Shown here one piece after another: positions 12,435 through 40,102 of a stretch of 64,000 bases of DNA. The first letter of the stretch is position 1. Each line of letters begins with the position of its first letter. The DNA comes from Verrucomicrobium sp. GAS474 (GTDB lineage: Bacteria; Verrucomicrobiota; Verrucomicrobiia; Methylacidiphilales; GAS474): assembly GCF_900105685.1 (NCBI RefSeq), contig NZ_LT629781.1, positions 3,460,611-3,524,610 of the forward strand. Reading direction: 5' to 3'. The translations under genes were made by a program, and so were the position numbers. The notes beneath the pieces were generated by a model, which saw only the letters and a list, made by a program, of their open reading frames with translations, ran no database searches and had not been told where the DNA came from.

Positions 12435-12497
12435 ACACTAAACAATCGTGGCGTGAGAGTCAATTTATTTACATTTTTTTACTGCAATTTATTGCAA
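12435..12497 (-). promoter_or_regulatory. Promoter plus phased TTGCAA-box operator (esterase operon)
   Basis: The operator on the plus strand is CTGCAA-TTTA-TTGCAA at 12482-12497. On the minus strand, 18 bp further on, TTGACT (12463-12458) and TAGTGT (12440-12435) are separated by 17 bp, pointing at the esterase operon that starts at 12347. The same operator could also serve the divergent oligogalacturonate-lyase-like gene at 12587. Assuming a start site seven bases after the -10 box, the operator centre is near -61. Confidence 0.6.
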
Positions 12498-17265: not shown

Positions 17266-17360
17266 AAGACGATCCGTTTTCCTGCGTATTGAGTTATCGC
17301 GTTGTCCTCCCCCCCAAAAAACATGCTGCGGAGCAGAGGATTTGCGGTTGAACCATCTCA

Positions 17361-17423
17361 AGAATCTCAAAAGCCGCTAATCATGTAAATACAATTTTAT
17401 AATTTCTCAGCAAATTTTTGCAA
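17361..17423 (-). promoter_or_regulatory. Phased TTGCAA-box operator with weak promoter upstream of PEP-CTERM gene
   Basis: CAGCAA-ATTT-TTGCAA lies at 17408-17423. On the minus strand a TTTACA (17389-17384) follows after 18 bp, the same distance as at 12.4 and 40.1 kb. A poor -10 match, GATTCT, sits 17 bp further. The operator match is good; the promoter is tentative. Confidence 0.45.
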
Positions 17424-17510: not shown

Positions 17511-17526
17511 ATGCAAAATATTGCAA
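17511..17526 (+). promoter_or_regulatory. Phased TTGCAA-box operator upstream of oxidoreductase/GH106 genes
   Basis: ATGCAA-AATA-TTGCAA lies 42 bp before the ATG at 17569. It is too close to the gene for an upstream activator position; it would more likely overlap or follow the start of transcription. This is a roadblock or repressor-like placement, unlike the other sites. Confidence 0.5.
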
Positions 17527-17568: not shown

Positions 17569-18813
17569 ATGATTCGTTTCGGACTGATCGGCGTCGGCGG
17601 CATCGGTTCCTATCATCGGGCCTCCATCGAGCGCCTCGAAAAGGCCGGAAAGGGCCGCTTGATCGCCGTGGCCGAGCCCTCTCCCCTCCCTGAGCAGAAG
17701 ACCGCCCTGGAGGCTCTCGGCATCCGCTGGTATTCGGATTACCGTTCCCTCCTCGACGAGGAGACCGAGCTCGACGCGGTGACGATCGCCACGCCGATCC
17801 CCTTCCACTATGAGATGGCCTCGGCCTGCATTCATCGCGGGCTCTGGGTGAATCTGGAGAAACCGCCCGTCCCCCTCGTCCAGCAGCTCCGCTCTCTCGT
17901 GGCCGCCGACACGGAACGCCGGGTCTCCGTGGGCTTCCAATATATCGGGTCAACCTGCATGCAGGAGCTCAAGCGCCGGATCGTCGCGGGGGACTTTGGA
18001 AGGATTCAGGAAATCCATGCGGGAGGTTGCTGGCCCCGCCTCGACGGCTATTACAACCGCTCCCCTTGGGCCGGGCGGATGATCCGCGACGGAAACCCGA
18101 TCTTCGACGGCCCGGCGACCAATGCGCTGGCCCACCTCGTCCACAACGTGATGTTCCTGGCGGGCGCGACGGAATCCGATTTCGACGTTCCCTCGGAAGT
18201 CGAGGGCGAGATGTATCGGGCGCGCCCCATCGAGAGCTACGACACCGCCTGCCTGAGGGGGAAGTTCGGCCGCAGCGGCATCCGCTTCGCCTTGGCCGTG
18301 ACCCACGCCACCGAGCAATGCCTCCCCTTCCGGATCGACGTGCGCGGATCGAAGGGCTGGGCCCGGCTCGGCAACGACGGTGCCACGCTCGAGACCAACC
18401 TGGGCCCCGGCCTGAACCGTCCCGAGACGACCCAGGAACTCCTCGACCGCAACTACGACGCCTTCGTCGACGTGCTGCGCGGGGATCGCGACCATTTCGA
18501 GACGCGGCTCCAGGATACCCTGGGCTACGTCTCCGCCACGAACGGCATGCTCCTCTCCTCCGGGGGCATCCACGACATCTCCCGCGCCCATATCCGGCAC
18601 TACACGAAGGAAGAGCAGACGGGCTTCTCCGTCGCCTTCCTGCACGAGGCCGTGAAGCACACCCTTCTCAACGGAAAGCTCTTCTCGGAGCAGGGCATCC
18701 CCTGGGCCACGGCGAAGCCGCGCCCCGTCCGTCTCGCGGAACTCACCCATTTGCTCCTCGATGGGGACTTGACGGCGCGGACCGATGCGCACCCCGTCCA
18801 GGTGGCCGCCTAA
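17569..18813 (+). CDS. Gfo/Idh/MocA family oxidoreductase
   Basis: The protein has 414 residues. ATG 17569 is chosen because the Rossmann fold starts at once (MIRFGLIGVGGIGSYH), and a GGAG lies about 20 bases upstream. The NAD(P)-binding loop is GVGGIG. The EKPP segment (WVNLEKPPVPL) corresponds to the family EKP motif with the catalytic lysine. The C-terminal alpha/beta domain contains IQEIHAGGCWPRLDGYYNRSPWAG. Such enzymes oxidise or reduce sugars or sugar acids, and the substrate cannot be read from the sequence. It is followed after 90 bp by the GH106 rhamnosidase gene on the same strand and preceded by a TTGCAA-type operator. A role in processing a released sugar is inferred. It lacks a signal peptide. 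Confidence 0.85.
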   Translation: MIRFGLIGVGGIGSYHRASIERLEKAGKGRLIAVAEPSPLPEQKTALEALGIRWYSDYRSLLDEETELDAVTIATPIPFHYEMASACIHRGLWVNLEKPPVPLVQQLRSLVAADTERRVSVGFQYIGSTCMQELKRRIVAGDFGRIQEIHAGGCWPRLDGYYNRSPWAGRMIRDGNPIFDGPATNALAHLVHNVMFLAGATESDFDVPSEVEGEMYRARPIESYDTACLRGKFGRSGIRFALAVTHATEQCLPFRIDVRGSKGWARLGNDGATLETNLGPGLNRPETTQELLDRNYDAFVDVLRGDRDHFETRLQDTLGYVSATNGMLLSSGGIHDISRAHIRHYTKEEQTGFSVAFLHEAVKHTLLNGKLFSEQGIPWATAKPRPVRLAELTHLLLDGDLTARTDAHPVQVAA

Positions 18814-18903
18814 GACGGTCCGCTTCAAACGGATCGGCGATAGCGCAGACCGACTCTTTCCGATACGCTAAAAGAGAAGCGGCAAGCGGCATTCCTCCTG
18901 TCC

Positions 18904-21459
18904 ATGACAAAGCCCGTTCTCCTCCTCCTCGCAGCTTGGTCAACAGCTCTCCTGCCCTTGAGCGCCCAGGATGCCACCCCCGTCTGGCCTCCCGTCACCG
19001 AAACCCAGAAGCCGTGGGCGTTCTGGTGGTGGATGGGGAGCGCGGTCGACAAGGAGAATCTGACCCGGGAACTGACGCGCTATCGGGATGCCGGAATGGG
19101 CGGGGTCCAGATCATTCCCATCTACGGGGCGAAGGGATCGGAAGGCAGCTACATCCCGTTCCTCAGCCCGCAATGGATCGGGATGCTCCAGTACACCGTC
19201 GCCGAAGGAAAGCGGCTCGGCCTGGGCATCGACATGACGCTCGGATCGGGTTGGTGCTTCGGCGGGCCGGGCGTCACCAAGGAGGAGGCCTCGGCCAAGA
19301 TCGACTTCAAACAGCTCTTGGCGGCGAACGGCGATTCCTCCGCCGTCCGCACGCAGCCGAGCGACAAGGTGAAGCGCGCCGGCCCCGGCGGCGAGGGCTG
19401 GATGATCAATCCCTTCTACGGCAAGGCGATGGACGATTACCTCAAGACCTTCGACGGCCCCCTCGGCAGCCTGGGCGACCTCAAACCCCGAGCCGTCCAC
19501 CAGGATTCCTACGAGTACTTCGGCGCGAACTGGAGCCCCGATTTCCCGGAAGCCTTCGAGAAACGCCGGGGGTATCGCTTCCAGGACGAGCTACCGGCCC
19601 TGCTCACCACACCGTCCGACGACCATGCCTCCCGCGTCCGCTCCGATTACCGCGAGACCCTCTCCGACCTGATGTGCGAGGTCACCATGCCGAAGTGGGT
19701 CTCCTGGTCACACGATCACGGCTTCCTTGCCCGCTATCAGGCCCACGGAGCCCCCGCGAACCTGCTCGACCTCTACGCCCTCGCCGACATCCCGGAGACG
19801 GAGATGTTCAACAAAGCCCGGAACCGGCTCTTCTCGAAGTTCGCCTCCTCGGCCGCGCACGTGGGAGGGCATCCCCTCTGCTCGGGCGAGACCGGAACCT
19901 GGCTCGCCGAGCACTTCACCGAAACTCTGGCCGACATGAAAAACCTCGTCGACGACATGTTCCTCTCCGGCATCAACCACATCGTCTACCACGGAGTCTG
20001 CTACTCCCCCGACGAGGTCGCCTGGCCCGGCTGGGTCTTCTATGCCTCCACCGAGATGAACCCGCGCAACTCGATCTGGCACGACGTGGGGACACTCAAC
20101 GCCTACATCACGCGCTGCCAATCGGTCCTCCAGGCAGGCCAGCCGGACGGCGATCTTCTCCTCTATTGGCCGGTCTACGACGCCTGGAGCGAAGCGGGCA
20201 AGAGCCTCGTCCATCCGTTTGCCGTCGACGACAAGACGATCTTCGAAGGCCAATCCTTCGGACGGGCCGCGGCGAAGCTCTACGAGCGGGGCTATCAGTT
20301 CGACTACGTTTCCGACCGGCAGATCGCGCGCCTCCAGACGGAGAAAGGCCGCATCGCGATCGGCGACGTCCGCTATCGGGCCCTCGTCGTTCCGAAGTGC
20401 AAGCTCATGCCCGAAGGAACGTTGGAAACCCTCCTCGATCTCGCCCGCAAAGGCGCCACGGTGATCTTCGAGGAGCAATTGCCCGAAGACGTGCCGGGAT
20501 GGACACGCCTCGACGAACGGCGCGAAAAGCTCCGCACTCTGACGGCGGCGGCCCGCGGGCTCTCGGGCAAAGTCGTCGTCGGCCCCTTGCTGGCCTCCCT
20601 CGAGGGAGCGGGCGTGCCGCGTGAATTCCTGTGCGACCAGCCAGGCCTTCAATATGTGCGGCGCGCGCTTCCCGACGGGGTGTTCTACTTCATCTCCAAC
20701 AAGGGAAACCAGGCCGTCGACGGATGGATTTCCCTCGCGAAGCACGCCGAGGTCGCCTACCGCTTCGACCCGATGAGCGGCGCCATCGGATCGATCCCGA
20801 TCCGTGCCAGGGAAACGGACCTCTCCGAAGTCTATCTCCAACTCGCGCCAGGAGAATCGACGCTGGTCCGCCTCTTCTCCGAACGCAGGCCCGACGGCCC
20901 CAGCGCCGCTCTATGGCGCTCCACCGCCACGCCCGTGCCCTTGACGGGCACCTGGCACGTCCGCTTCCTGACCGGGGGCCCGGAACTTCCTCCGCCCTTC
21001 GATATGGATACCCTCGCCTCCTGGACCCAGAATGGAGGCGACACTGCACGGGCATTCGACGGCACAGCCCTCTATACTCTGACTTGGGATGCGCCTACGG
21101 GCATGGGCACCACAGCCCGCCTCGACCTCGGAAAGGTCTGCCAAAGCGCGCGCGTGCGCCTCAACGGACAGGAAATGGGAACGCTGATCGCGCCCCCCTT
21201 CCAAATCGTGATCGGTCCCCTCTTGCCGAAAGGCAATGTCCTCGAGATCGAAGTCACGAACACCTCGGCCAACCGAATCAGCGACCTCGACCGCCGAGGC
21301 GTCGCCTGGCATGAGTTCAACGATATCGGCGTCGTCGGCACCAACTACAAGCCTTTCAACGCTTCGAAGTGGCCCCTCGCCGACTCGGGGCTTTTAGGTC
21401 CGGTGACGCTCACTCCGGTGGCACCCCTTCTTCCCGCGAGCACGCCATCCGCCCCTTGA
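18904..21459 (+). CDS. GH106 alpha-L-rhamnosidase
   Basis: The protein has 851 residues with a signal peptide of about 21 (MTKPVLLLLAAWSTALLPLSAQ). The N-terminal region has the GH106 signature PWAFWWWMGSAVDKENLTRELTRY (read in two parts), then GVQIIPIYGAKGSE and IDMTLGSGWCFGGP. SGINHIVYHGVCYSPDE and the C-terminal jelly-roll (ARLDLGKVCQSARVRLNGQEMG) follow. GH106 enzymes remove terminal alpha-L-rhamnose, in particular from rhamnogalacturonan fragments, and use a metal-dependent inverting mechanism. The protein is exported and probably periplasmic. It sits downstream of the oxidoreductase and ends 7 bp from the convergent gene at 21467. Confidence 0.92.
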   Translation: MTKPVLLLLAAWSTALLPLSAQDATPVWPPVTETQKPWAFWWWMGSAVDKENLTRELTRYRDAGMGGVQIIPIYGAKGSEGSYIPFLSPQWIGMLQYTVAEGKRLGLGIDMTLGSGWCFGGPGVTKEEASAKIDFKQLLAANGDSSAVRTQPSDKVKRAGPGGEGWMINPFYGKAMDDYLKTFDGPLGSLGDLKPRAVHQDSYEYFGANWSPDFPEAFEKRRGYRFQDELPALLTTPSDDHASRVRSDYRETLSDLMCEVTMPKWVSWSHDHGFLARYQAHGAPANLLDLYALADIPETEMFNKARNRLFSKFASSAAHVGGHPLCSGETGTWLAEHFTETLADMKNLVDDMFLSGINHIVYHGVCYSPDEVAWPGWVFYASTEMNPRNSIWHDVGTLNAYITRCQSVLQAGQPDGDLLLYWPVYDAWSEAGKSLVHPFAVDDKTIFEGQSFGRAAAKLYERGYQFDYVSDRQIARLQTEKGRIAIGDVRYRALVVPKCKLMPEGTLETLLDLARKGATVIFEEQLPEDVPGWTRLDERREKLRTLTAAARGLSGKVVVGPLLASLEGAGVPREFLCDQPGLQYVRRALPDGVFYFISNKGNQAVDGWISLAKHAEVAYRFDPMSGAIGSIPIRARETDLSEVYLQLAPGESTLVRLFSERRPDGPSAALWRSTATPVPLTGTWHVRFLTGGPELPPPFDMDTLASWTQNGGDTARAFDGTALYTLTWDAPTGMGTTARLDLGKVCQSARVRLNGQEMGTLIAPPFQIVIGPLLPKGNVLEIEVTNTSANRISDLDRRGVAWHEFNDIGVVGTNYKPFNASKWPLADSGLLGPVTLTPVAPLLPASTPSAP

Positions 21460-21466
21460 TGTCTCC

Positions 21467-22174
21467 TCAATGGAGGGGCGGCTCAAAGGGAACGGCGGTC
21501 GAGCGGAAAATCACCGTATTCTCCGCCGCCACCTGCTCGAACTCGACATCGGCGTCGAAGGCATCGTTCACCGACAGGAGGGGAATCTTGTCGGCGGAGA
21601 ACGATTCGAAGACATCCTTCGACGCGTTCCCCTGGTTCACCCCCTTGGGAGGGACCTTGTTCTTCTGCTTCGGCGGAGCGAGCGTCTCGGAGTAATGGAG
21701 TGCGATGCAGTTCAGATCCTTGTCGTAATAGGCGTCCGTATTGATCTGGTTCATCGTCCGCTGATAATCGGCATAGTGCTTCTCCGGGCTCTTTGGCCTC
21801 TTGTCTTCGGGAAGGCAAAACGCATCGAGCTGATCGTGAGAAAAGCGGACGTAGACATGCCACGGCGCATCGGCCTGCGTCAGGTCGACGAAGAAATCAT
21901 GCTCATGGTTCAGCGGATGCTCGTCGTGAAAATTCCGGACATGTCCCTTCACGCGGATAGGCTTGGAGGAGAGCCTTTCCACGGCGCCCTGCTCCTCCTT
22001 CTGAAAGAGCTTCACCACATCATCGGCCTGGATCACCTCTTTACCCTGGGCTGGCGGAAGCACCCCTTTTCCCGCAGGAACCGGATGAATTTCTGCTCGG
22101 AGAGACTCAGTTCCGATAACAAGGCAGAGCACGGATAACATGAAGGCAAAGGCGATTCGCGACATTTCATTCAA
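21467..22174 (-). CDS. Exported protein of unknown function, possible OB-fold (tRNA_anti-like)
   Basis: The protein has 235 residues with a signal peptide near residues 5-27 (RIAFAFMLSVLCLVIGT). The middle part, DVVKLFQKEEQGAVERLSSKPIRVKGHVRNF, is reminiscent of the tRNA_anti-like OB-fold family, in which a short helix precedes 'kGk.v.V.G.V'. The match is only by eye. The rest (HDFFVDLTQADAPWHVYVRFS, AYYDKDLNCIALHYSETL) has no recognised motif. It is alone in its transcription unit, convergent with GH106, and has three phased TTGCAA-like boxes 52 bp upstream. It is therefore likely part of the same regulon, and a role in pectin use is inferred only from location. Confidence 0.7.
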   Translation of the reverse strand: MNEMSRIAFAFMLSVLCLVIGTESLRAEIHPVPAGKGVLPPAQGKEVIQADDVVKLFQKEEQGAVERLSSKPIRVKGHVRNFHDEHPLNHEHDFFVDLTQADAPWHVYVRFSHDQLDAFCLPEDKRPKSPEKHYADYQRTMNQINTDAYYDKDLNCIALHYSETLAPPKQKNKVPPKGVNQGNASKDVFESFSADKIPLLSVNDAFDADVEFEQVAAENTVIFRSTAVPFEPPLH

Positions 22175-22225: not shown

Positions 22226-22251
22226 TTGCAATATTTTACAATAATTTACCG
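22226..22251 (-). promoter_or_regulatory. Triple phased TTGCAA-box operator
   Basis: Three boxes, TTGCAA (22226-22231), TTACAA (22236-22241) and TTACCG (22246-22251), are separated by four-base AT spacers, so each starts 10 bp after the last. They lie 52 bp upstream of the minus-strand unknown gene at 22174 and after the end of the GH28 gene. No convincing -35/-10 pair was found next to them. Confidence 0.5.
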
Positions 22252-22287: not shown

Positions 22288-23571
22288 TCAGTTACCACTC
22301 GCCTGCGGCTCGTTCCCGTAAAAAACCCCGTTGATCTTCACGTTGTCGAATTTCAAGCCGCTCACCCTCTTCGTGATCACATCGGGAGTCTTCAGGGTGA
22401 TGTCGATATTCTTGAACGTGACATTCTGGACCGTGCTTTTCTCCGGCCCATCGATCTGACCAAAGCTTTTCAAGGTTCCGGTGATATCGGAAAGCGTAAC
22501 GTCAGAAACCCATTGGCTCGGCGCAGGCTTTCCCTGCAAGTCGAAGAACTGCGTCCAGCCCTTGATTTGGATCAATTGAACCGCCGGATTGTCGATCGTG
22601 ATGTTGCGGACGACGATGCCTTCGTAATGCTGTTCCGTGTCGGGACGAAGCTTGAGCGAGACAAGGCAATTCTTCTCCTTTCCCGCAATTTTGCAGTTTT
22701 CCATCACCACATTGCGTACCGTCGTCGCCTCGCTGCCGAGGGTGAGCGCCGCGTTCCCCAGCCCGAACGTGCAGTTGGAAATATGGATGTTCTCGTCGGG
22801 CAAAATCGTCGGGTCGTCGAGAGCAGTCGGCCCCTTGCTTCCCTTGAGGCAGATGTTGTCGTCGTCCACGGAAATGAAACAACCGTCGATGCTCACATTC
22901 TGGCAACTATCGAGATCGATCCCATCGGTGCTCGGCGCTTTAAGCTGTGTACGAATATCGAGCTTCTCGATGTGCACATCCTGGCAGCGGAACAGATGCA
23001 AGTTCCAGAAACCCGATTGGCGCAGGGCGATACCGCCGAGGTAGACGTCTTTCGAATCCTGGATGAAGACGTTGCGGGGGCGCTTCACCTCGAGGTTCGT
23101 GGCGTCCTTATTGGCCGCGCGCCGTTTCCAGAAGGCGTCCCAGAAAGCTTTTCCCCCGCCCTGGATCGTCCCCTCTCCGTCGATACGGAGATGGTCGGCG
23201 TGCGCCGCGTTGACGAGAGCGGGCACCCAGGTCTGGATCTTGCCTTCGATGCGGGTTTCCCCCTCCGGATAGTCGGCGATATCCGTCGATCCCTGAAGCA
23301 CCGCGCCCTTGTCCAGATGGAGGTTCACGCCGGGCTTCAGAAACAGCGCCCCGGAAAGGAACGTCCCTGCGGGAATCAGGAGCGTCCCTCCTCCGGCGTC
23401 CGCGCACTTGTCGATGGCAGACTGGATCGCCAGGGTGTTCAGCGTCTTGCCGTCCCCCACAGCACCGTATTGGACGATGTCGACTCTTTCCGGCGAGGAG
23501 GAGGTTTCGGCCCTCCCGCAGGAGAGCAAGACAAGGACAAGGACGAAGAGGGACGAAAAAATCTGTGACAT
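22288..23571 (-). CDS. GH28 glycoside hydrolase (polygalacturonase/rhamnogalacturonan hydrolase family)
   Basis: The protein has 427 residues with a signal peptide of about 21. The start of the right-handed beta-helix is VDIVQYGAVGDGKTLNTLAIQSAID, seen in most GH28 proteins. The catalytic acids fit STDGIDLDSC and SVDDDNICLKGS. The usual GHG-His motif is replaced by GLGNAALTLGSEA, and the RxK motif is represented by VSLKLRPDTEQHY. Loss of the GHG histidine is typical of rhamnogalacturonan-type members rather than plain polygalacturonases, so the substrate is probably a rhamnogalacturonan fragment. It is the last gene of a long minus-strand operon, 15 bp after rhaT. Confidence 0.88.
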   Translation of the reverse strand: MSQIFSSLFVLVLVLLSCGRAETSSSPERVDIVQYGAVGDGKTLNTLAIQSAIDKCADAGGGTLLIPAGTFLSGALFLKPGVNLHLDKGAVLQGSTDIADYPEGETRIEGKIQTWVPALVNAAHADHLRIDGEGTIQGGGKAFWDAFWKRRAANKDATNLEVKRPRNVFIQDSKDVYLGGIALRQSGFWNLHLFRCQDVHIEKLDIRTQLKAPSTDGIDLDSCQNVSIDGCFISVDDDNICLKGSKGPTALDDPTILPDENIHISNCTFGLGNAALTLGSEATTVRNVVMENCKIAGKEKNCLVSLKLRPDTEQHYEGIVVRNITIDNPAVQLIQIKGWTQFFDLQGKPAPSQWVSDVTLSDITGTLKSFGQIDGPEKSTVQNVTFKNIDITLKTPDVITKRVSGLKFDNVKINGVFYGNEPQASGN

Positions 23572-23586
23572 GATAATGACTGGTTA

Positions 23587-24672
23587 TTAAGGCTTCGCCG
23601 CCGCGCCGAGGTAATTGCCGTAGCCCACGATCACCGTCGATCCGACAAGGGCAAAGAGGCCGAGGCCGATGAGGAGGTGAGTGCGGAAGCTCGTCCCCTT
23701 CCATTCGCGAAGGGCGATTCCCCACAACGTGCTGAAGATGATGATGCTCGCCATGTGGAGCGTCCAACTCGAGAATCCGTAGGCTCCCATGCAGGTCTCT
23801 CCCATCGAGTAAAAGAAGAACTGGAGATACCACGTTACTCCGGCGATCGCGGAGAAGACGTAATTGGCCAAGAGCGGCACGTCATGGCCGTGGCCATCCC
23901 TGCGGGAAATATAATCACCCCACGTCCGGTTCCTCAGGTTGAGGACGAGGCACCACACACCATTCGTTGCGAAACCGCCCAGGAGCACCACGACAAGGAC
24001 CGGCAGGTTCCGCCAGAGAGGCCCCGCCCCGTCCTCCGCAAGGTGCTTTGCGGCGATCTCCGCAATCGGCTTTCCCGAGGCGAAGCCGTACGACATGCAG
24101 GCGCTCATCACCCCGGAGAAGACCGCCATCCCCAGCCCTTTCGCGAAATGGAACTCCCGGATGGTCCGTCGTTTCTCCTCTTCCGAAAGCTCGCTCTCCT
24201 TCGACATCCCGGCGCACCCGCTCACGCCGATCCCGAGAAGGCACACCGCCACCCCGGAGAGAATCCACTGTCCCGAGACCGTATGGGCGATTCGTCCCAA
24301 ATCCCCGGCCACGAGAGGAGGCATCAGCGTCCCGAACGCGGCGCAGAACCCGAGGGCGATCGCCATCCCAAGCGCGATACCCAGATAGCGCATCGTGAGC
24401 CCGAACGTCAGCCCCCCCACCCCCCACAAAGTGCCGAAAAGAAACGACCAACCGACGGCCCCGCCGGGTGCCTCCCTCAGGATCGCGCCGAGATGGGGGA
24501 CGAGGAGCCACGCGAAGAGCCACGGTGCGACGATCCAACTGAAAAATCCGCCCACGATCCAATAGCTCTCCCATGCCCATTTGCGGACGCCGCGATAGGG
24601 AATATAAAAGCTGGCCGAGGCCAGGCCGCCGATCCAATGGAAGATCAGTCCGAGGAGGGGATTGGGAGTCAT
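23587..24672 (-). CDS. rhaT: L-rhamnose-proton symporter RhaT
   Basis: The protein has 361 residues. ATG 24672 is used because the 56 codons upstream of it are antisense to the preceding gene and hydrophilic. About 10 hydrophobic helices can be traced, and the family hallmarks are present: LLGLIFHWIGGLASASFYIPYRGVRKWAWESYW (in parts), FGTLWGVGGLTFGLTMRYLG and YGFASGKPI. RhaT takes up L-rhamnose with protons through the inner membrane. It lies 16 bp after the Verru_Chthon cassette gene A and 15 bp before GH28, so the cassette, rhamnose uptake and a pectin hydrolase share a transcript. No rhamnose catabolic kinase, isomerase or aldolase is in the window. Confidence 0.92.
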   Translation of the reverse strand: MTPNPLLGLIFHWIGGLASASFYIPYRGVRKWAWESYWIVGGFFSWIVAPWLFAWLLVPHLGAILREAPGGAVGWSFLFGTLWGVGGLTFGLTMRYLGIALGMAIALGFCAAFGTLMPPLVAGDLGRIAHTVSGQWILSGVAVCLLGIGVSGCAGMSKESELSEEEKRRTIREFHFAKGLGMAVFSGVMSACMSYGFASGKPIAEIAAKHLAEDGAGPLWRNLPVLVVVLLGGFATNGVWCLVLNLRNRTWGDYISRRDGHGHDVPLLANYVFSAIAGVTWYLQFFFYSMGETCMGAYGFSSWTLHMASIIIFSTLWGIALREWKGTSFRTHLLIGLGLFALVGSTVIVGYGNYLGAAAKP

Positions 24673-24688
24673 GAAAAAAGACAAATCT

Positions 24689-27600
24689 CTACTGTTGGAC
24701 GACCTCGACTTGCTTATCGAGCACCTTGCCGGTGAGGCGGTCGATCGCGAGGTGGACCCAATAGCGTCGCTCCCCCTCCATGATGAAGTCATCAGCCGAC
24801 TTCGCGGCAGTTGGATAGCGGCCTGTCTGCGAAACCACATCGATCATAAGATTCCAGACTCGCGTCTGCCCCACGGACGCCAACGGGCGGATCGCCGACT
24901 CGCGGAAGCGCTGGATGTTCGTCAGCGAGGGAGAGGCGGTGAAACCGGAGATTGCGCCAATATCGTTGCTGAACCCGTCGAACGCCTGCCCGTTGAAACC
25001 GCCCGCGTAGCCGGGGATGTACTTGCCGACCAGCTCGCTGACGTTCTGGAAAGGTCCCTTGTTCGACGCTGAAGAGGTGCTCCGGCTGATCACGGCATTG
25101 GCCAGATCCTTCACGAGCGTGGGATCGCTCATCGCGGCGATGGCGCCCGTGGGAGTTGTTGCGAGATGATTGTTCTCGTCGATACAGGCTCCCGAGAACA
25201 AGGCCTGGAGGACGGGGGCCTGGCGCGTGTTGAGATCGACCATCCCGGCCACGAGGCCCGCGGGATCGGGCGTGTCGTGGACGCAGAAGATGTCGAGAAG
25301 CGCGGCGTCTCCGCTCTCCGGAGTGAAGAAGTCGAGGTTCTTCCAGGGCGTTCCCGAAAAGACATAACCCAACTCGGCGACCGAGGCGAAAGGCCGGTTC
25401 AAAACGATCGGTCGACTCTGGCTTTGATTCTGCGCCGGCGTGACATTCACAGCCCCGTTCGCGAGGGTGCTCGCAATCGGCAGGCCGACCGTCGTGGCGG
25501 CCGGCGTCCCCCCCGAAGGAACGACATACCCCCCCATGGCGCGCCGAAGGACGCCGTCCGGATCCTGGTAGTAGGAGGCCGAACCGCCGCCGCCGGAGGT
25601 GGCGCCCGAGGTGCTCTTGCCGTCGTCGAGGGCCGTCGGGAGGTTTTGGGCGTAGAGGCCGGAACGGAAATAGGTGCTGCTACCGAACCAATTGATGCTC
25701 CCGCCCCTCGACATCTTGCCGTAACTGGCCGAAGCTGAACCGTAGGGCACCCCGTAGCCCGCATTGACTCCGGGGCGGGTGCTCAGGAGGATGCCGTTGG
25801 CCGTGTCGATCCAATCGGTGCGGGTATTGCCCACACCGTTGACCCCGCTCGCATACATCCCCGCCGGAGAGGAGAAGCGGCTGCTGCGGGGATCGACGAA
25901 GCCCGTCCACATGCAATCGGCGCCATACGTATAGATCGGCGGAAGGAGCGACCCCTGTGTCGCCGCATTCCGGTTGCCAACGGCCGTGCCCCCGCTGTTT
26001 CTAAGGCTCCCGACGGCTGTACCACTCCCGAAGGGAGTCAGGGTTTGAAGCATGGCATAAGGGGAACCCGAAACGAACTTCATGTCGTAGGTCAGCCAGG
26101 AACCGGCGGGATCCGCATTGCCGTTGTTGATGTTCGGATTGCTGCATTGCAGCCGCATTGTCATCGGGACAAGGCCTCCCCCCAACCCATTGGCGCTGGC
26201 CAGTGGAGCCCAGCTCCGATAGACATTGCCGTCGGCCACCCACTCGACGGGATAGAGGCCGATGACGAACCCGGTGAAGTTGGCGTTCGGATTGATCGCG
26301 GGCGCGGCGCTCTGGTTGAGAGGATCGGGCGTTTCGCAGCGGAGTCCTCCCGCCGAGGCATCGTACACGGCCTGCCCTGCGGCGTTCTTCAGGAGAAGCA
26401 GATCGGGATCGGACGCAATGTTCATCTTCAGGTTGCTTCCGCTGACGTTCACCTGTCCCAGCATCGTCGGCTCGCGGAACATCGTCGTCGCGGCGGCCGA
26501 AGTCGAGCCGGAGGCCGGGATTGTGAAATTCAACGTGACGTTCGAGCCCTTCGTTGTATTGGGAGATTGGATGACGAACCCCGTCGCCTTACCCGCGTTG
26601 CCGTTGAACGCCCGGGACATCGTCGCGCCTCCCCGGCTTTGCTTGAATTGGGTGGTATCGATGGTCGTGAACGAACTGTAGGAAGAATAGACGTCGACCG
26701 TGTCGGACCCGGCGGCGGCGGAGCCAATGTAGTTCGTCGGCTCCGTCTCGACGATCCCCGAGGGATAGATGCTGTCGGCCGTGACCCGGAAGTCGGCGGG
26801 AGAGGGATACCCGGGGGAGGTATTCACGTCGTGCGGATTCCAGACGTCGGGGATCATCATCAACGCGACGACGCCGGTATCGCTCACCGTGTTGCCCGAA
26901 ATCGAGGTCGCCACCGCATAATTGACTGCTGTGGAGCCGTTGCTCGTGATCTTGTTCGCGTCCGGGCTCTCCATCCGCATCTTGAGCATGCCGTAATGGA
27001 ACCGGTAGAGGTAGGGGAGGTTCTTCACGCCGCGAAATTCGGTCGCCACATCCCCGGAGACGCTGCCGCTGTCGTCGAAGACGATGCGGGGAGGATAGGC
27101 GTCGAGGGTTGCCTGGGCGATGATGTTGGCACCGATCTGGAGGATGGCGTAATCGAGGGAGCCATCGAGCTGGCTCTGGACGTAGAGGGGATCGTACTGA
27201 TAGCTGGTCCCGTTGCGCGCCTTGGCCAGCGTCGGATTGGCGGCCACCTTCGCCTTCGATCCGGCGGAAACCGTTGCCTTGATCAGTTCGAAGAAATCGG
27301 GATCGCGGGCTTGGCTCCCCAGGGCGGCAATGTCCTTGAGAAGCTGGATCGAGCGCTTGCTCCCCGCCGTGGGAGACCCCGTGGTGTTGTGGTAGTCGTA
27401 GAACCACTTGTGTTGGCTGTCGGCCGGATCGACTTTCCACTCGAGACCGAAGTATTTCTTGATGTTCGCCGGTCCTCCCTGCTTCAGGAAGGTGGGCGCG
27501 AATCCGTAGGTCTCCTCCAACGTTGCGATCATCGTCGTAATTCCGGAATCACTCGCCGGATTGAGGTTGCCGTTGTCGTCCGCGATCGGTCCGGCATAGG

Positions 27601-28990
27601 TGATCCAGACCAGACGATCGAGGGCGAAGCGCTTCTTGACGAGGGCATCGCCCACCGAAGCCGTGCTGCCGTCGTTGCGAGTAAACGTCCCCGACGCCGC
27701 CACCTGGGGAAAGATCGGGTTGATCGACTTGTCGAGGCCGTAACCGGTATTGCCCCCGCTTACCGCGGACAACGCTACCGTGGGAGCCGACGTGCTCAGC
27801 ACTGGATTCGAGGTCGGGGGGATGTAGCTGGGCTGGCTCACACCCCGGCTGAACGTCCCGAGGTAACGGAGGGCGTTCTGGGTCGCGCTGAGGGAATTCC
27901 CGCCGACCTTGGCGATCTGAGTCGCGAAATTGAGAAGCTGCTGGCGGCTGACGAAGACGTGGTCGGTCGTCCCCGCCGGAGCCGTTCCGACCGGGGAAGC
28001 ATTGAGGAAGCCGCTTCCGTTGCGGTTGGCCCAAACGAAGAAGTTGGTGTAAACGGCGCTCGAAGCCGTCAGGGCGAAACTGCTGGGGCCGCTACCCGAG
28101 GAGAGGAGCGTGCCGCTGTTCCGCCATGCCGCAAGCTGGTCGATCTGCTTTTGATTGAGCCCAGTCTGGGTCAGGTCGGCATAGGCGAGCGAACTTTTCA
28201 GGTCGACCTGGTTCTTGATGCCATAGCCGGTCGTCGGCTGATTGGTGACGACGGAGGGATAGCCGGCCACATTGGCGTCGAGAAGGCCTCCTTCATTGTA
28301 GACAACGTAGGCATAGCGGCCAACGACTGCCGCCGTGTCGGCGGCCGAGGAAGTCCGGATCAGGTCGGAGTTCCACGCCGTGGGATTACTACCGGAGCGA
28401 TCGACCAGGATCCAGTCGGGGGCGGTGAAATTTTTCGGCGTGAAGTCGGTGGAGGAACCGGAGGTCGCCTTGGCCATAAGGAGTGGCTTGTTCCATGCGC
28501 TCAGCGAAAGCGCGTGCCCGTTGCGGGCGGCATTCGTGGTAGAGGCGGCGATCGCCCGGGAGGCTCCACCGGAATAGAAGGACAGGCCGGATTTGCTCAC
28601 CTTCACGACGTTCTCGAGGCCCGAACCGACGATCGTCGCGCTCGTGTAGCCGGGGACAGCCAAGGCCGGGATGGCGTTCGCCGCCTTGGAGGGAAGATAG
28701 AGGATGGCCGTCCCGGCACTGGGACTGAGCGTCTTCGATCCCGCCACGATCTCGCTCTTCAGGTCGCCGATGATGCGGTTCACCGCGCCGTCGGCGAGGA
28801 TCTCGGCCGAGGTCTGGCTGGAACTGCTCTTGGAGACCTGCCGCTGGAGCTGGCTGATCGAGAAAAAGGCGAGGACGACGCCGACCAGCAACGCCATGAA
28901 GGAGAGGACGACCACCAGGGCCACGCCGCGCTCCCGACCGAGCACAGGCGGGAAAGCCTTCGGATTTTGCGAACAAGGCATCGATTTCAT
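24689..28990 (-). CDS. Verru_Chthon cassette protein A (large prepilin-like protein)
   Basis: The protein has about 1433 residues. ATG 28990 is chosen because it overlaps the stop of gene C as ATGA and places the prepilin-like leader near the N-terminus. GRERGVALVVVLSFMALLVG at about 20-40 resembles a type IV prepilin/pseudopilin signal, followed by an amphipathic helix (SQLQRQVSKSSSSQTSAEIL). The remainder is a long Ser/Asn/Gly-rich exported region with no recognised catalytic motif. The gene belongs to the four-gene Verru_Chthon cassette (order D-B-C-A here) known only from Verrucomicrobiota. The function is unknown, and assembly with B, C and D into a pseudopilus-like structure is inferred from their leaders. 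Confidence 0.85.
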   Translation of the reverse strand: MKSMPCSQNPKAFPPVLGRERGVALVVVLSFMALLVGVVLAFFSISQLQRQVSKSSSSQTSAEILADGAVNRIIGDLKSEIVAGSKTLSPSAGTAILYLPSKAANAIPALAVPGYTSATIVGSGLENVVKVSKSGLSFYSGGASRAIAASTTNAARNGHALSLSAWNKPLLMAKATSGSSTDFTPKNFTAPDWILVDRSGSNPTAWNSDLIRTSSAADTAAVVGRYAYVVYNEGGLLDANVAGYPSVVTNQPTTGYGIKNQVDLKSSLAYADLTQTGLNQKQIDQLAAWRNSGTLLSSGSGPSSFALTASSAVYTNFFVWANRNGSGFLNASPVGTAPAGTTDHVFVSRQQLLNFATQIAKVGGNSLSATQNALRYLGTFSRGVSQPSYIPPTSNPVLSTSAPTVALSAVSGGNTGYGLDKSINPIFPQVAASGTFTRNDGSTASVGDALVKKRFALDRLVWITYAGPIADDNGNLNPASDSGITTMIATLEETYGFAPTFLKQGGPANIKKYFGLEWKVDPADSQHKWFYDYHNTTGSPTAGSKRSIQLLKDIAALGSQARDPDFFELIKATVSAGSKAKVAANPTLAKARNGTSYQYDPLYVQSQLDGSLDYAILQIGANIIAQATLDAYPPRIVFDDSGSVSGDVATEFRGVKNLPYLYRFHYGMLKMRMESPDANKITSNGSTAVNYAVATSISGNTVSDTGVVALMMIPDVWNPHDVNTSPGYPSPADFRVTADSIYPSGIVETEPTNYIGSAAAGSDTVDVYSSYSSFTTIDTTQFKQSRGGATMSRAFNGNAGKATGFVIQSPNTTKGSNVTLNFTIPASGSTSAAATTMFREPTMLGQVNVSGSNLKMNIASDPDLLLLKNAAGQAVYDASAGGLRCETPDPLNQSAAPAINPNANFTGFVIGLYPVEWVADGNVYRSWAPLASANGLGGGLVPMTMRLQCSNPNINNGNADPAGSWLTYDMKFVSGSPYAMLQTLTPFGSGTAVGSLRNSGGTAVGNRNAATQGSLLPPIYTYGADCMWTGFVDPRSSRFSSPAGMYASGVNGVGNTRTDWIDTANGILLSTRPGVNAGYGVPYGSASASYGKMSRGGSINWFGSSTYFRSGLYAQNLPTALDDGKSTSGATSGGGGSASYYQDPDGVLRRAMGGYVVPSGGTPAATTVGLPIASTLANGAVNVTPAQNQSQSRPIVLNRPFASVAELGYVFSGTPWKNLDFFTPESGDAALLDIFCVHDTPDPAGLVAGMVDLNTRQAPVLQALFSGACIDENNHLATTPTGAIAAMSDPTLVKDLANAVISRSTSSASNKGPFQNVSELVGKYIPGYAGGFNGQAFDGFSNDIGAISGFTASPSLTNIQRFRESAIRPLASVGQTRVWNLMIDVVSQTGRYPTAAKSADDFIMEGERRYWVHLAIDRLTGKVLDKQVEVVQQ

Positions 28991-30141
28991 GGAGTGGGAG
29001 TGCGGGTGTGCAGGTAGAAATGCCGCTCGTAGACCCGGATCGCCCCGGCGATCCGGACAGGCAGGCCGGACGAAGTGGCAAACGAGCCCGACTGAATCAC
29101 GTCGGTCCATTTCTGGGCAGGCAGGAGCGGCGACGACTGGCCGAGATCGGAGGTCCCGATGTCGGGCAAGGCTTTCGCCGCGGCGAGGAGATCGAGCTTC
29201 ATCGAATGGATGATCCCGAGGCTCGCGTTGTCGAGCCCCGCGACAGTGACGACGACGGCGGAAACGTCACCCCAGCCCAGGGGCGTCCAGACGGCACTCC
29301 CCGACGTCGCGTCCGTGCAGATGTAGCCACGATAACCTGTCGAATCATACCAACGGGAACCTCCGGCATAGCCGGAGCCCGAATCGGAGGAACTCGTCGG
29401 CGCCCCCTTCTGGGAAGCGTAAAACGGGCTCGATCCCCATCCCGAGGGCGTCTTCTGAAGCACCGGGATCGTCGAGTAGGTGCCGTCCCGCAACAGGTAA
29501 CAGACGGAAAAACGGAAGACCCCGGCGCCGATCTGTTGGTAGAGGGTCGAGGAAGCGCCCTTCCAGGCGGCGAGGTCGGGATTCGTGGAGGGGGAAAGGG
29601 TGCTGTTCGGGAGCGGCTCGAAATTGAAAACTCCGCCGGAGGTGCTCCCCTTGGGCGTCAGGAAGACCATTCCGCTGCCGCCGGAGCCCGAGGCACTCCA
29701 GCCGACCGCGGACCCGCACCGCTCCAGGGAGTTGTAATTCGCGCTGGCCGAGGACGTATTGACGCGATACCCAACGAGGGAGACGCCGCAGGAAGCGCCC
29801 GCCGAGGCGTCGGCGTAGCCCGGGACCTCCGAGTAGAAGAGCATCTGGGCGTTCCCCGTCTGCGTGGGGAAGTAGGAGTCGACGTCGGAACGCGAGACCA
29901 TCCGCGCGAGGTCCTGCCCCAGGCAGTCCATGATGAAGCGGGCCTGCTCGTCGATGTCGAGGCGCTTTCGGGAGAGGCCGGCCGCCGCCGTCGTGTTCTG
30001 GACCAACTCGGCATTGAGGACCATCAGCAGGACGAAGACCGCCAGCGTGACCAGCATCTCGACCAGCGTGAACCCCCGGCGGCCCGCCAGCTTCGGAAGG
30101 CGGGAACGCCGGTCAGGGATTGAGAACCGTGACCACCTCAT
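28987..30141 (-). CDS. Verru_Chthon cassette protein C (prepilin-like)
   Basis: The protein has 384 residues. After a basic leader, RRGFTLVEMLVTLAVFVLLM (about residues 21-40) is a classic prepilin cleavage site (G/FTLVE) and membrane helix. The body (FIMDCLGQDLARMVSRSDVDSYF, VLQKTPSGWG, VFRFSVCYLLRDG) resembles pseudopilin J/K-like members. It overlaps gene B by 29 bp at its start and gene A by 4 bp (ATGA) at its end, so translation is coupled. It needs a prepilin peptidase and an assembly ATPase, neither of which is in this window. Confidence 0.87.
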   Translation of the reverse strand: MRWSRFSIPDRRSRLPKLAGRRGFTLVEMLVTLAVFVLLMVLNAELVQNTTAAAGLSRKRLDIDEQARFIMDCLGQDLARMVSRSDVDSYFPTQTGNAQMLFYSEVPGYADASAGASCGVSLVGYRVNTSSASANYNSLERCGSAVGWSASGSGGSGMVFLTPKGSTSGGVFNFEPLPNSTLSPSTNPDLAAWKGASSTLYQQIGAGVFRFSVCYLLRDGTYSTIPVLQKTPSGWGSSPFYASQKGAPTSSSDSGSGYAGGSRWYDSTGYRGYICTDATSGSAVWTPLGWGDVSAVVVTVAGLDNASLGIIHSMKLDLLAAAKALPDIGTSDLGQSSPLLPAQKWTDVIQSGSFATSSGLPVRIAGAIRVYERHFYLHTRTPTP

Positions 30142-30613
30142 AACTTCCCGCCTGGCCCGAGGGCCATTGATCGACCGTTTTGATCCCCGGAGCCGGCCAT
30201 GTGACGAGAATCCGTACCGCGGAGGACTTCAAGAAGGCCACGTCGAGCCGGTATTGGGCGGCTCCCGAGGCGCCGGTGAGACTGGTCGAATACGATCCGT
30301 TCGGAAAGACGTAGAGGGTCTGCGGCGCCGCGTCGGAAGAAGAGGCACTCGTCACCTTGAGCTTGAAGCGCCCGGTGATCCCGCTCGAGCCCACCGTCTG
30401 GATGTCGGCGACAGCCGCCCGGACGATCCCGGCGGCCTCGGTCTGCGCCACCGTGTCGCGATTCGTGTTCAACCCGATGGGAAGGAGCCCCATGATTCCG
30501 ATGATGCAAAAGCTGCAAATGCCAAGCGAGAGCGCCAGCTCGACGAGGTTGAAGCCTCGGCTCCCGATGCGGCGATGGCGGCTCCCCACGTTCACGGACA
30601 TTGACGCACACAT
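30113..30613 (-). CDS. Verru_Chthon cassette protein B (prepilin-like)
   Basis: The protein has 166 residues; a second in-frame ATG at 30601 is equally possible. SRGFNLVELALSLGICSFCIIG near residues 18-39 is a prepilin leader (G/FNLVE) with membrane helix, followed by LLPIGLNTNRDTVAQTEAAG. The C-terminal half is a beta-rich domain ending TVDQWPSGQAGSYEVVTVLNP. It lies 12 bp downstream of gene D and overlaps gene C. In the known cassette it is a minor pseudopilin-like component of unknown function. Confidence 0.87.
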   Translation of the reverse strand: MCASMSVNVGSRHRRIGSRGFNLVELALSLGICSFCIIGIMGLLPIGLNTNRDTVAQTEAAGIVRAAVADIQTVGSSGITGRFKLKVTSASSSDAAPQTLYVFPNGSYSTSLTGASGAAQYRLDVAFLKSSAVRILVTWPAPGIKTVDQWPSGQAGSYEVVTVLNP

Positions 30614-30625
30614 CGGGCCCCGTCT

Positions 30626-31405
30626 TTACATCTGGCCCGGGCGATAGAAACGGACGAACCCGGTGACCCCGTCGACGCGGATGAGGGAACAGTTCGCCGA
30701 GACGGTCGCGCTGCTTCCGGTAGCCGGAACCAACCCCACCGCGACGTAATGCGGCACGGTCTGTCCGGTAAGATCGGTGACGACGTTGGCGCCTCCGTTC
30801 GGCTTGAACTGGATGACGAGATCGAACGTTCCCACGGGATTGCGTCCCTGTCCGAAGCCGAGGTCCTGCGCCGTGAACGTGGTGAGGGCCGTCGTCGTCG
30901 CGGCGTCGAGGCTCGAGAACGTCATGTCGACGTTCGGCAGGTAGGTCTTGATGCTGTCGACGGGGACGAGGCTGACACCTTCGAGGCACTGGAGCTTCGA
31001 GAGGCTGACCAGCGAGGGCGTCCACGAACCGTTCTCATATCCCGAAGTGCCGTCGACCGTCGCCGCGACGCTGACGTAGACGCACGAGCCGCTGCCCCGC
31101 TTCGCGAGGTCGGCCCCCGAGGGTTTGTAAAACCCGACGTAGACGTAACTGTTGTTGGCCATGGCGTGGGACCGGGCCATCTCCAGGATCGAGACCAAAT
31201 CGCCGGTGGCCTTGCCCACCGCTTGATTCCGCCCGACGGACGAGAAGGACTGGATCGAGACTACCGCCATCACGCCGATAATGGCAACCACGATAAGCAG
31301 TTCGATCAGGCTGAATCCGCCCGATCTCCGCGCTCCCATTCCTCGTCTCTTCCGGCAAAGAGCAGAAACTCGAACCCTCGTGCAGCGATGCGTCGTGGTT
31401 TGCAT
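30626..31405 (-). CDS. Verru_Chthon cassette protein D (prepilin-like)
   Basis: The protein has 259 residues. SGGFSLIELLIVVAIIGVMA (about residues 28-47) is a textbook prepilin signal (G/FSLIE), followed by VVSIQSFSSVGRNQAVGKATGDL as in GspH-like pseudopilins. ATG 31405 is favoured: an AAGG lies at good distance before it, and the predicted transcription start lies only about 20 bp further upstream. ATG 31339 would give a leader of more usual length. It is the first gene of the D-B-C-A-rhaT-GH28 operon, under a TTGACT/TAGGCT promoter and a TTGCAA-type operator. Confidence 0.86.
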   Translation of the reverse strand: MQTTTHRCTRVRVSALCRKRRGMGARRSGGFSLIELLIVVAIIGVMAVVSIQSFSSVGRNQAVGKATGDLVSILEMARSHAMANNSYVYVGFYKPSGADLAKRGSGSCVYVSVAATVDGTSGYENGSWTPSLVSLSKLQCLEGVSLVPVDSIKTYLPNVDMTFSSLDAATTTALTTFTAQDLGFGQGRNPVGTFDLVIQFKPNGGANVVTDLTGQTVPHYVAVGLVPATGSSATVSANCSLIRVDGVTGFVRFYRPGQM

Positions 31406-31432
31406 AATTCGACCTTTTTGAAGTCTGCCCTC

Positions 31433-31484
31433 AGCCTAAAGCAGCAATTCTTGAAAGTCAATTTTATGCCGTAATTTTTTGCAA
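31433..31484 (-). promoter_or_regulatory. Promoter plus phased TTGCAA-box operator (Verru_Chthon cassette/rhaT operon)
   Basis: The operator is CCGTAA-TTTT-TTGCAA at 31469-31484. On the minus strand TTGACT (31461-31456) follows after 7 bp and TAGGCT (31438-31433) after a further 17 bp. The operator is 11 bp, about one helical turn, closer to the promoter than at 12.4 and 40.1 kb. It controls the cassette-rhaT-GH28 operon by position. Confidence 0.6.
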
Positions 31485-31645
31485 CTTTAATCCTAACTAG
31501 TTGATTTTTAAAAACTTTTAAAAAATACACCTATTGCAAATAAGTAGGAATACGAACCATACAACTGCAAATTGACTGAGTAGGAACCCTTAGAAAAGGG
31601 AGGCTGCCAGAGAGAAGAGACGCCCCGATGGGGCACAGAATGCAA

Positions 31646-31960
31646 TCAGTCGAGGTGGAAGACCTCAACCAGCGGGCAACTCACCGGACTGTGGTCCGGG
31701 TTCGAGGGCATGATCTCGCTCATGTGCGCCCACCATTTGCGGCAGATCGGCGTCTCCGCAATCGCCTTCCATCGCGTCTCATCCTCGATTTCGGCATAAC
31801 CGAAAAGCTGGCGCGTCTCCGGATGGAGGAAGATCGAGTAATTGCTCACCCCGTGTTGCCGGAGGACTTCCTCCAGTTCGGGCCAGATCGGAGAGTGCCG
31901 ACGTTCGTACTCGGCCTCGTTCCCCTCCCCCACGGACATGACGAAAGCCTTGCGGAGCAT
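31646..31960 (-). CDS. rhaM: L-rhamnose mutarotase
   Basis: The protein has 104 residues, the exact family length. MLRKAFVMSVGEG, YERRHSPIWPELEEVL, HGVSNYSIFL, CRKWWAHM and SEIMPSNPDHSPVS align by eye almost gaplessly with E. coli RhaM, including His22 of the active site. RhaM interconverts alpha and beta anomers of L-rhamnose in the cytoplasm, so rhamnose released by GH106 and imported by RhaT can enter catabolism. ATG 31960 is the start; longer frames overlap the LacI gene. It lies 4 bp after the LacI-family regulator and is surely co-transcribed with it. Confidence 0.95.
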   Translation of the reverse strand: MLRKAFVMSVGEGNEAEYERRHSPIWPELEEVLRQHGVSNYSIFLHPETRQLFGYAEIEDETRWKAIAETPICRKWWAHMSEIMPSNPDHSPVSCPLVEVFHLD

Positions 31961-31964
31961 CGGA

Positions 31965-33041
31965 TCAGGAAGCCTTGGAGGGAACAGGACCGACGGTCGA
32001 GCCCGGATAAAAATCGCTCGGGAAGAGGATGGAACGACACGATTCGGCCGGATTCTTGATCCGAATCTGGAGCCGCTTGAGCGCCGCCGCGCCGATCGCC
32101 TCGTAGGAGGCACCGACGCTGGTGAGGTCGGGCCGCGAAGACTCGGCTTGGTTAGGCCGGTGGAAGCCGGTGATCGAGACATCCTCAGGCACGCGAAGTC
32201 CTCGCGCGGTAAACCAATCGTGAAGCATCCACCCCGCGGGCTCAGTCGAGCAGACCCAAGCGGTGATCCCCGCCTTGCGCAGCTTCTCGACCTTCTCCCC
32301 ATAGCCTTCCCAGCCTGCTTCCTTGCTCGAAAGGGTATCGAAGTCGACATCGATGACCCAATCGGGCCGGTATTCGATCCCGAGGGAGGCAAGCGCGGCG
32401 ACATACCCCCCGAAGCGGGCGGTCGACCAATGGAGCTGCGAGCAGCGCCCGACGAAGGCGATCTTCCGGTGCCCCTTAGCGTAAAGCTCCCGCACCAGAA
32501 GATCCATGCCGCCCTCGTTGTCGAGGCCGACCATGTCGACGTCGGTGCCGGGATACTTGTGCATGATCGAAACCGTCGGAAGCTTCTGGCTCAAGGCGCG
32601 GACGACATCGGAGGGCCACCAGAAGATCAGGACGACGCCCGAGAGCAGCCCGGAGCGCATCGCCGTGGGCTGCTGCGCCGGGTCGAGCACACTGGCGCAT
32701 TCGCCCGGCTTCACATGATGGATCACGAGCGAGCTGTTCAGGGACATCGCCGCATCACTCAACCCCGTGAGGTAGGGATGGGACTGGGTGCCGTTCGTCG
32801 TCTCCATGAAGACGCCGATATGCTGCAAGCGGTCCTTCCCGCCGACCGTCGAACTCCGGTAGCTGCGCGGCAGGCGGTAGCCGACCTCGGAGGCGGTTTG
32901 AAGGACCAACGCCCGGGTCTCGGCATTGATGCCCGGAACCCGCCGGAGGGCGCGGGAGACGGTCGCCACCGAAAGGTTGAGCTTCTTCGCCACGTTTTCC
33001 ATCGTAGCCGAGGAATCAGTCTTCTTGCGGGTGCGTGCCAT
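31965..33041 (-). CDS. LacI-family transcriptional regulator
   Basis: The protein has 358 residues. Residues 13-60 form the LacI helix-turn-helix and hinge (TMENVAKKLNLSVATVSRAL, VLQTASEVGYRLP). Residues 75-350 are the periplasmic-binding-like ligand domain (QHIGVFMETTNGTQSHPYL, KGHRKIAFVGR, PEDVSITGFHRP). It is in an operon with rhaM. Three TTGCAA-like boxes lie 17-42 bp before its start codon, so it may regulate itself and, through the same boxes, most of the island. It is the only DNA-binding regulator inside the island, and the effector is probably rhamnose or a pectin fragment. Whether it activates or represses is not decided by the sequence. Confidence 0.92.
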   Translation of the reverse strand: MARTRKKTDSSATMENVAKKLNLSVATVSRALRRVPGINAETRALVLQTASEVGYRLPRSYRSSTVGGKDRLQHIGVFMETTNGTQSHPYLTGLSDAAMSLNSSLVIHHVKPGECASVLDPAQQPTAMRSGLLSGVVLIFWWPSDVVRALSQKLPTVSIMHKYPGTDVDMVGLDNEGGMDLLVRELYAKGHRKIAFVGRCSQLHWSTARFGGYVAALASLGIEYRPDWVIDVDFDTLSSKEAGWEGYGEKVEKLRKAGITAWVCSTEPAGWMLHDWFTARGLRVPEDVSITGFHRPNQAESSRPDLTSVGASYEAIGAAALKRLQIRIKNPAESCRSILFPSDFYPGSTVGPVPSKAS

Positions 33042-39984: not shown

Positions 39985-40039
39985 GAAGACACTTTCGCTT
40001 TGGGCGTCGATTATCTTAATGACACCCAGCAGCAGGGCC

Positions 40040-40102
40040 ACACTAGAACACCCTTTTTAAGGAGTCAATTTTTTACCTTCTTTTTGCTGTAATTTTTTGC
40101 AA
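40040..40102. promoter_or_regulatory. Promoter plus phased TTGCAA-box operator (divergent GH28 and GH59 operons)
   Basis: The operator is CTGTAA-TTTT-TTGCAA at 40087-40102. On the minus strand, 18 bp further, TTGACT (40068-40063) and TAGTGT (40045-40040) are 17 bp apart and drive the GH28-GH115-ExuT operon. These are the same -35 and -10 hexamers, and the same distance, as at 12.4 kb. The operator is 39 bp from the ATG of the divergent GH59 gene and may serve both directions. Confidence 0.62.

Follow-up and report, generated by a model that had tools for sequence, protein, structure and literature searches.

In the genome of Verrucomicrobium sp. GAS474 (a single contig of 3.76 Mb, 99.9% complete), a stretch of 64 kb (C1:3460611-3524610; the window in what follows) carries four adjacent prepilin-like genes, D, B, C and A, which run directly into genes for rhamnose uptake and pectin degradation. 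Sequence comparisons and structural models together identify D as GspH-type, B as GspI-type, C as GspJ-type and A as GspK-type, A being a giant form enlarged by inserted domains. The cassette is proposed to be one of ~18 alternative GspH-I-J-K sets of this genome and to provide a sugar-induced, exchangeable tip for a shared type II machine, by which secretion would be matched to the polysaccharide; the probability of this reading is put at roughly 0.57. It is the most likely function because the set equals GspH-I-J-K only and the core machine is encoded once, elsewhere. Neither the cassette nor its neighbors within the window contained a secretin, an ATPase, a platform protein or a major pseudopilin, and the cassette as a complete secretion system was rejected because these core parts are missing. 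The preliminary description of this DNA, made from the sequence alone, had suggested a pseudopilus-like apparatus; a pseudopilus-like set within a rhamnose/pectin operon is indeed present, but it amounts to four minor pseudopilins and not to a whole apparatus.

Identity of the four cassette proteins

All four genes lie on the minus strand. D (30626-31405; 259 amino acids, motif GFSLIE), B (30113-30613; 166 amino acids, GFNLVE) and C (28987-30141; 384 amino acids, GFTLVE) each encode a class III prepilin motif with a glutamate at position +5 (Glu5), and A (24689-28990; 1433 amino acids) encodes a class III motif from which Glu5 is missing. The same pattern was observed across the sets, nearly all H, I and J proteins having Glu5 and no K protein having it, as in type II systems. 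In a profile matrix that set the cassette proteins against the core GspG-K proteins encoded here and in related genomes, D matched GspH best (tied with GspG), B GspI, C GspJ and A GspK. Past the N-terminal helix, only A retained a signal, which fell on residues 117-171 of GspK (probability 74, compared with <2 for the rest). The structural model of C (11 sequences; predicted local distance difference test [pLDDT] 65) gave Z 9.3-10.2 for EpsJ, XcpW and GspJ and 10.3 for the pilin TTHA1219, the next unrelated fold reaching 3.7. For the A family, the model was made on the nearest paralog in the same genome (1081 amino acids, 73 sequences, pLDDT 84, predicted template modeling score 0.88). Its scores were Z 11.4 for GspK (3ci0_K, over 248/280 residues) and 11.1 and 10.8 for XcpX, compared with 5.4 for the fold that came next. 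These GspK/XcpX matches cover 232-248 of 259-280 residues, and that to GspK extends along the entire chain, interrupted by large insertions that include a beta-sandwich (model residues 539-773).

The four genes had previously been described as a Verru_Chthon cassette. Adjacent genes of types D, B, C and A are indeed found, but all four proteins were far under the curated cut-offs (D, TIGR02596, 40/70 bits; B, TIGR02598, 40/51; C, TIGR02599, 25/256; A, TIGR02600, 31/332), with matches confined to their N-terminal 55-66 residues, and they were therefore rejected as members of Verru_Chthon proper. Judged by sequence, the window cassette is of a type that forms a sister family to true Verru_Chthon. 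The next-best curated models were GspH for D (E 7.5e-9), GspJ for C and GspK for A. The NCBIfam cut-offs of these models were missed as well (GspH 36/80, GspJ 24/65 and GspK 22/130 bits; GspI gave no match), and the core GspJ and GspK of the same genome were likewise under theirs. Profiles of A, B and C retrieved no useful match from PDB sequences, and the D profile retrieved the common pilin helix only. In profile comparisons, D, B, C and A of true Verru_Chthon paired one-to-one with H, I, J and K of the window type (probability 97-99), and their best core matches were again H, I, J and K. The folds of C and A, the profile matrix, the Glu5 pattern and this pairing of the canonical family together indicate that both cassette families are sets of four minor pseudopilins. 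No paper employing the term Verru_Chthon was found in a literature search.

Cassettes and secretion machines of the genome

The ~18 cassettes, 11 of the window's kind and 7 true Verru_Chthon, are divergent and dispersed over the genome, and none has an ATPase, a platform or a major pseudopilin of its own. The genome contains a single full type II locus (L046), encoding GspF, E, G, H, I, J, K, a protein in the GspL position, a protein in the GspC position, and D; its GspG scored over the respective cut-off. Four of the 11 window-kind cassettes (L027, L028, L033 and L039) have no H gene and consist of I-J-K only. Beside the canonical cassette in L038, an 84-codon remnant (C1:1844849-1845073, plus strand) matching the C-terminus of the A family with 108 bits is perhaps the trace of a lost or replaced cassette.

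If the cassette acts as proposed, a rhamnose-responsive regulator would switch it on, with rhamnose or pectin fragments as the inducer, and D, B, C and A would be processed by a common prepilin peptidase. They would then take the place of the housekeeping tip on the shared machine's GspG pseudopilus, where A, at the extreme tip, would recognize co-induced proteins, either pectin-degrading enzymes or secreted repeat proteins, and drive them through the secretin. Swapping of tips would thereby suit secretion to the polysaccharide present. A tip of four minor pseudopilins has been described as critical for substrate recognition and binding in Pseudomonas (PMC6211770), and in a verrucomicrobial alginate degrader one pseudopilin lies within the alginate operon and is induced on alginate (PMC13274419).

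The same sets might instead cap type IV pili and mediate adhesion to different polysaccharide surfaces, in the manner of the PilY1/minor-pilin clusters of Myxococcus xanthus, where three alternative clusters serve one pilus machine (PMC7541494). FimU-PilV-PilW-PilX are homologous to GspH-I-J-K, and PilQ-like and PilB-like proteins are encoded in the GAS474 genome. However, A matches GspK, its C-terminal part corresponding to core GspK at the profile level, and a Pfam search of A found no PilX domain. Moreover, an I-J-K cassette adjoins a second GspD-type secretin gene and the partner gene upstream of it (L033:13062-15724, which is C1:1123061-1125723; identities to the core pair, 52% and 33%), which ties the cassettes to type II rather than to type IV machines. 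Alternative type IV tips are for these reasons considered unlikely. This second secretin also adjoins a pair of genes resembling those for xylose isomerase and xylulokinase.

Operon layout and a putative pectin/rhamnose regulon

In the direction of transcription (minus strand), the order is LacI-family regulator (31965-33041), rhaM (31646-31960, L-rhamnose mutarotase), ~240 bp of AT-rich intergenic DNA, D, B, C, A, rhaT (23587-24672, L-rhamnose/proton symporter) and a GH28 rhamnogalacturonidase gene (22288-23571, encoding an N-terminal signal sequence). The start of C overlaps the end of B, and that of A overlaps the stop codon of C (ATGA). From the coordinates, the arrangement described beforehand, D-B-C-A running into rhaT after 16 bp and from there into GH28 after 15 bp, was confirmed. 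RhaT and RhaM passed their NCBIfam cut-offs (500 vs 468 and 151 vs 99.6 bits, respectively); the top model for GH28 was rhamnogalacturonidase BT4153 (E 3e-122, under that model's strict cut-off). Within the cassette-rhaT-GH28 run, scans for promoters (4 vs 2.4 expected) and terminators (7 vs 9.5 expected) revealed no separation of genes beyond chance. The whole run is part of a pectin/rhamnogalacturonan island at ~11-44 kb of the window, which also contains genes for GDSL esterases, oligogalacturonate lyase PL22, GH106, two GH28, GH43, GH115 and GH59.

The operator TTGCAA had been described as shared between the cassette and the pectin genes, and this held when it was counted in the window, in 332 kb around other cassettes and in 180 kb of random loci of the same genome. 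Two copies precede D, one proximal (31479-31484) and one distal (31534-31539, in CTATTGCAAATAAG). The others lie between the genes for a GDSL esterase (11034-12347) and PL22 (12587-13807), at 12492-12497; between a PEP-CTERM protein gene (15985-17370) and a Gfo/Idh-GH106 pair (17569-21459), at 17418-17423 and 17521-17526; between GH28 and the gene at 21467-22174, at 22226-22231; and between another GH28 (38716-40041) and GH59 (40141-42315), at 40097-40102. Every one of the seven hexamers in the window falls between genes, where base composition predicts 1.1; intergenic DNA makes up 9% of the window. The extended form WWTTGCAAWW occurred six times in the window and once in the regions around the other cassettes, and it was absent from the random loci. 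As the sites are common to the cassette and the pectin genes and nearly absent elsewhere in the DNA sampled, the cassette is a predicted member of a local pectin/rhamnose regulon, and the adjacent LacI protein, a candidate sensor for the operon, is the obvious candidate for binding TTGCAA. A genome-wide promoter element was rejected as an explanation, since TTGCAA in this setting was confined to the window among the regions sampled. The PEP-CTERM protein (15985-17370), with two copies upstream of its gene, is a candidate cargo of the window cassette.

Cassettes at other sugar loci and in related genomes

The link between cassettes and polysaccharide genes is general. Among 105 neighbors of the 18 cassettes, 8 had a LacI-type sensor domain, 6 were GPH/MFS_2 transporters, 5 were PATR proteins, and 3 each belonged to GH2 and GH5, among other families; none of these was among the 25 commonest families listed for 130 genes of 20 random loci, a listing that may hide single matches. 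Genome-wide, the LacI-type sensor domain (PF13377) lies within 10 kb of a cassette at 12/22 places (2.7 expected, P 2e-6), all four strong MFS_2 (GPH) transporters lie within 5 kb (4/4, P 3e-5), and PATR-repeat secreted proteins lie within 10 kb in 9/15 cases (P 1.4e-5). The preliminary description would have lost its footing if cassettes elsewhere were unlinked to polysaccharide genes; what was found is that sensors, transporters and PATR proteins are enriched at them. PATR and PEP-CTERM proteins, both enriched beside cassettes, are candidate cargo. A tie to rhamnose in general was rejected, most of the 18 cassettes being situated at other sugar loci.

When the A profile was run against 84,980 genomes, 107 relatives were obtained, of which 80 were kept, all from Verrucomicrobiota (Spartobacteria/Chthoniobacterales, Methylacidiphilales, Verrucomicrobiales and others). 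H-I-J immediately preceded K in 40 of the ~65 testable loci across the phylum, and the immediate neighbors were again LacI/GntR sensors and PATR and PEP-CTERM proteins. Cassettes were present in 16/24 relatives with a GspD-like match and missing from all six without one (6/6); this co-occurrence is weak evidence, since five of these six belong to one family. In some loci, a conserved fifth gene comes after K, in many cases overlapping the stop of K by 4 or 8 bp, and encodes ~230 amino acids that include a secretion signal (L037:6544-7266, L033:3731-4471 and L032:13417-13998, and ~27 other loci). It had no Pfam or NCBIfam match and was rejected as a part of the window cassette, where it is absent; it occurs at 3/11 cassettes of the window's kind in GAS474.

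In a FastTree phylogeny of A, 9/11 of the GAS474 cassettes grouped first with cassettes of other genomes and not with a paralog of their own genome alone. The nearest relative of the window A, placed as its sister with support 0.998, comes from an organism of another genus, Verrucomicrobium sp. BvORR106, whose cassette runs co-directionally with genes for a PL4 rhamnogalacturonan lyase (the Pfam match was obtained with the BvORR034 copy), a PL9-like lyase, two GDSL esterases and a PATR protein. Homologs of the window's GDSL esterases were found only in this clade among the 80 loci (P 1.2e-4, post hoc). A second lineage joins the GAS474 cassette L037, which adjoins a GH78 rhamnosidase gene, with L132 (RhaT and, identified by eye, a GH78-like protein) and L135 (RhaM); a third comprises L042, L117 and L107, linked by heparinase II/III-type genes. 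Close cross-genome cassette pairs had a rare neighbor family in common in 59% of cases, compared with 10% for random pairs (P <=5e-4). Cassette lineage thus appears to track substrate.

These observations bear on the possibility that the cassettes are mobile or hitchhiking elements that settled in sugar loci through genome structure and are functionally unconnected to the local substrate. The cassettes are many, divergent and spread genome-wide, and sugar loci cluster and may themselves be transferred, all of which speaks for this reading. Against it stand the window-specific operator common to cassette and pectin genes, the tight spacing with rhaT and GH28, the order H-I-J-K kept across orders, and the agreement of lineage and substrate across genomes, and hitchhiking is accordingly regarded as very improbable.

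Secretion or capture of the polysaccharide

The size of A admits a different role. With hundreds of residues more than GspK, it could be part of the same four-subunit tip, carried by a long filament of type II-like or type IV-like character that can be extended, with the inserted beta-sandwich binding polysaccharide and retraction bringing it to or into the periplasm, where it would be digested. The beta-sandwich (model residues 539-773) resembles C2 domains and, weakly, sugar-binding modules, and several cassettes, the window's included, are co-directional with an inner-membrane sugar transporter gene. In related Planctomycetes, dextran attaches to pili-like fibers and is then taken up into the periplasm (PMC5394234). 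The likeness to sugar modules is weak, however, with a best Foldseek E of 0.15 and C2 domains equal in score, and many cassettes adjoin genes for secreted enzymes and repeat proteins, as secretion predicts. Capture of glycan by the tip is considered less likely than secretion. To our knowledge, glycan binding has not been reported for any GspK. If the tip does bind glycan, it would be a pointer to how these bacteria handle large polysaccharides. Extended to the phylum, this reading would make the cassettes a system of polysaccharide-specific, sugar-induced exchangeable tips throughout Verrucomicrobiota, the giant GspK binding glycan and a retracting pseudopilus carrying it inward for periplasmic digestion. 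That generalization is doubtful; if true, retracting glycan-binding tips would be a missing device for large-glycan uptake in the superphylum.

Several points weigh against the exchangeable type II tip. The cassette may secrete matching enzymes or may instead grip the polysaccharide, with A binding a cargo in the one case and a ligand in the other. The window GH28 may be a lipoprotein and perhaps exported without any tip. The machine used may be another one, given that type IV minor pilins are homologous and PilQ- and PilB-like proteins are present. Cassettes are missing from 14/30 relatives, and 8 of those 14 have a GspD-like secretin match. Concerning the identification of the subunits, the assignment of D and B rests mainly on the N-terminal helix, from profiles, and the modeled paralog is only 40% identical to the window's A. 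Foldseek gave no significant match for the model of this paralog and did not list GspK, which surfaced only when a second aligner realigned the Foldseek candidates, so that the GspK fold of A rests on the second aligner and the profiles. The conserved neighborhoods may partly stem from vertical descent of whole loci, for which the pair statistic is uncorrected, and a literature search found no experimental study of these cassettes.

Comparison with known systems

With the exchangeable-tip reading, Verru_Chthon cassettes, a curated but unexplained family, gain a concrete function as minor-pseudopilin tips, and the data suggest that a single machine, for secretion or a pilus, is re-tooled by exchanging its tip to fit the available sugar. 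Cargo choice by type II systems is a long-standing question, and ~18 natural tip variants in one genome, each beside the genes of a presumed substrate, would open it to direct testing.

The closest known counterpart is GspH-I-J-K of type II systems (XcpU-V-W-X; PDB 3ci0, 5vtm), with which the window cassette has in common the four subunit types, their gene order, Glu5 in H, I and J and its absence from K and, by model, the folds of GspJ and GspK. It differs in that neither gspC-G nor L-M lies alongside in the window, in that there are ~18 sets per genome, in its embedding in a sugar operon, and in the size of A, which has 1000-1400 amino acids with large inserted domains compared with ~320 in core GspK. 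Verru_Chthon is likewise a four-gene prepilin-like cassette, and the seven true ones of the same genome also adjoin sugar genes, but their canonical gene order is mostly B-C-A-D, whereas that of the window cassette is D-B-C-A. PilY1/minor-pilin clusters 1-3 of M. xanthus resemble the cassettes in offering several complete minor-pilin sets to one machine, in their differential regulation and in the proposed fitting of the tip to the substrate (PMC7541494, PMC9109919); in contrast, they belong to a type IV pilus, number three, include PilY1 and are not described within polysaccharide operons. In Verruconatronum alginivorum, a PulG-like pseudopilin with 67 homologs in the genome is encoded in a polysaccharide operon and over-expressed on the polysaccharide, but the accessible part of that report describes it as a single PulG-like protein, with no H-I-J-K set, GspK or tip function (PMC13274419).

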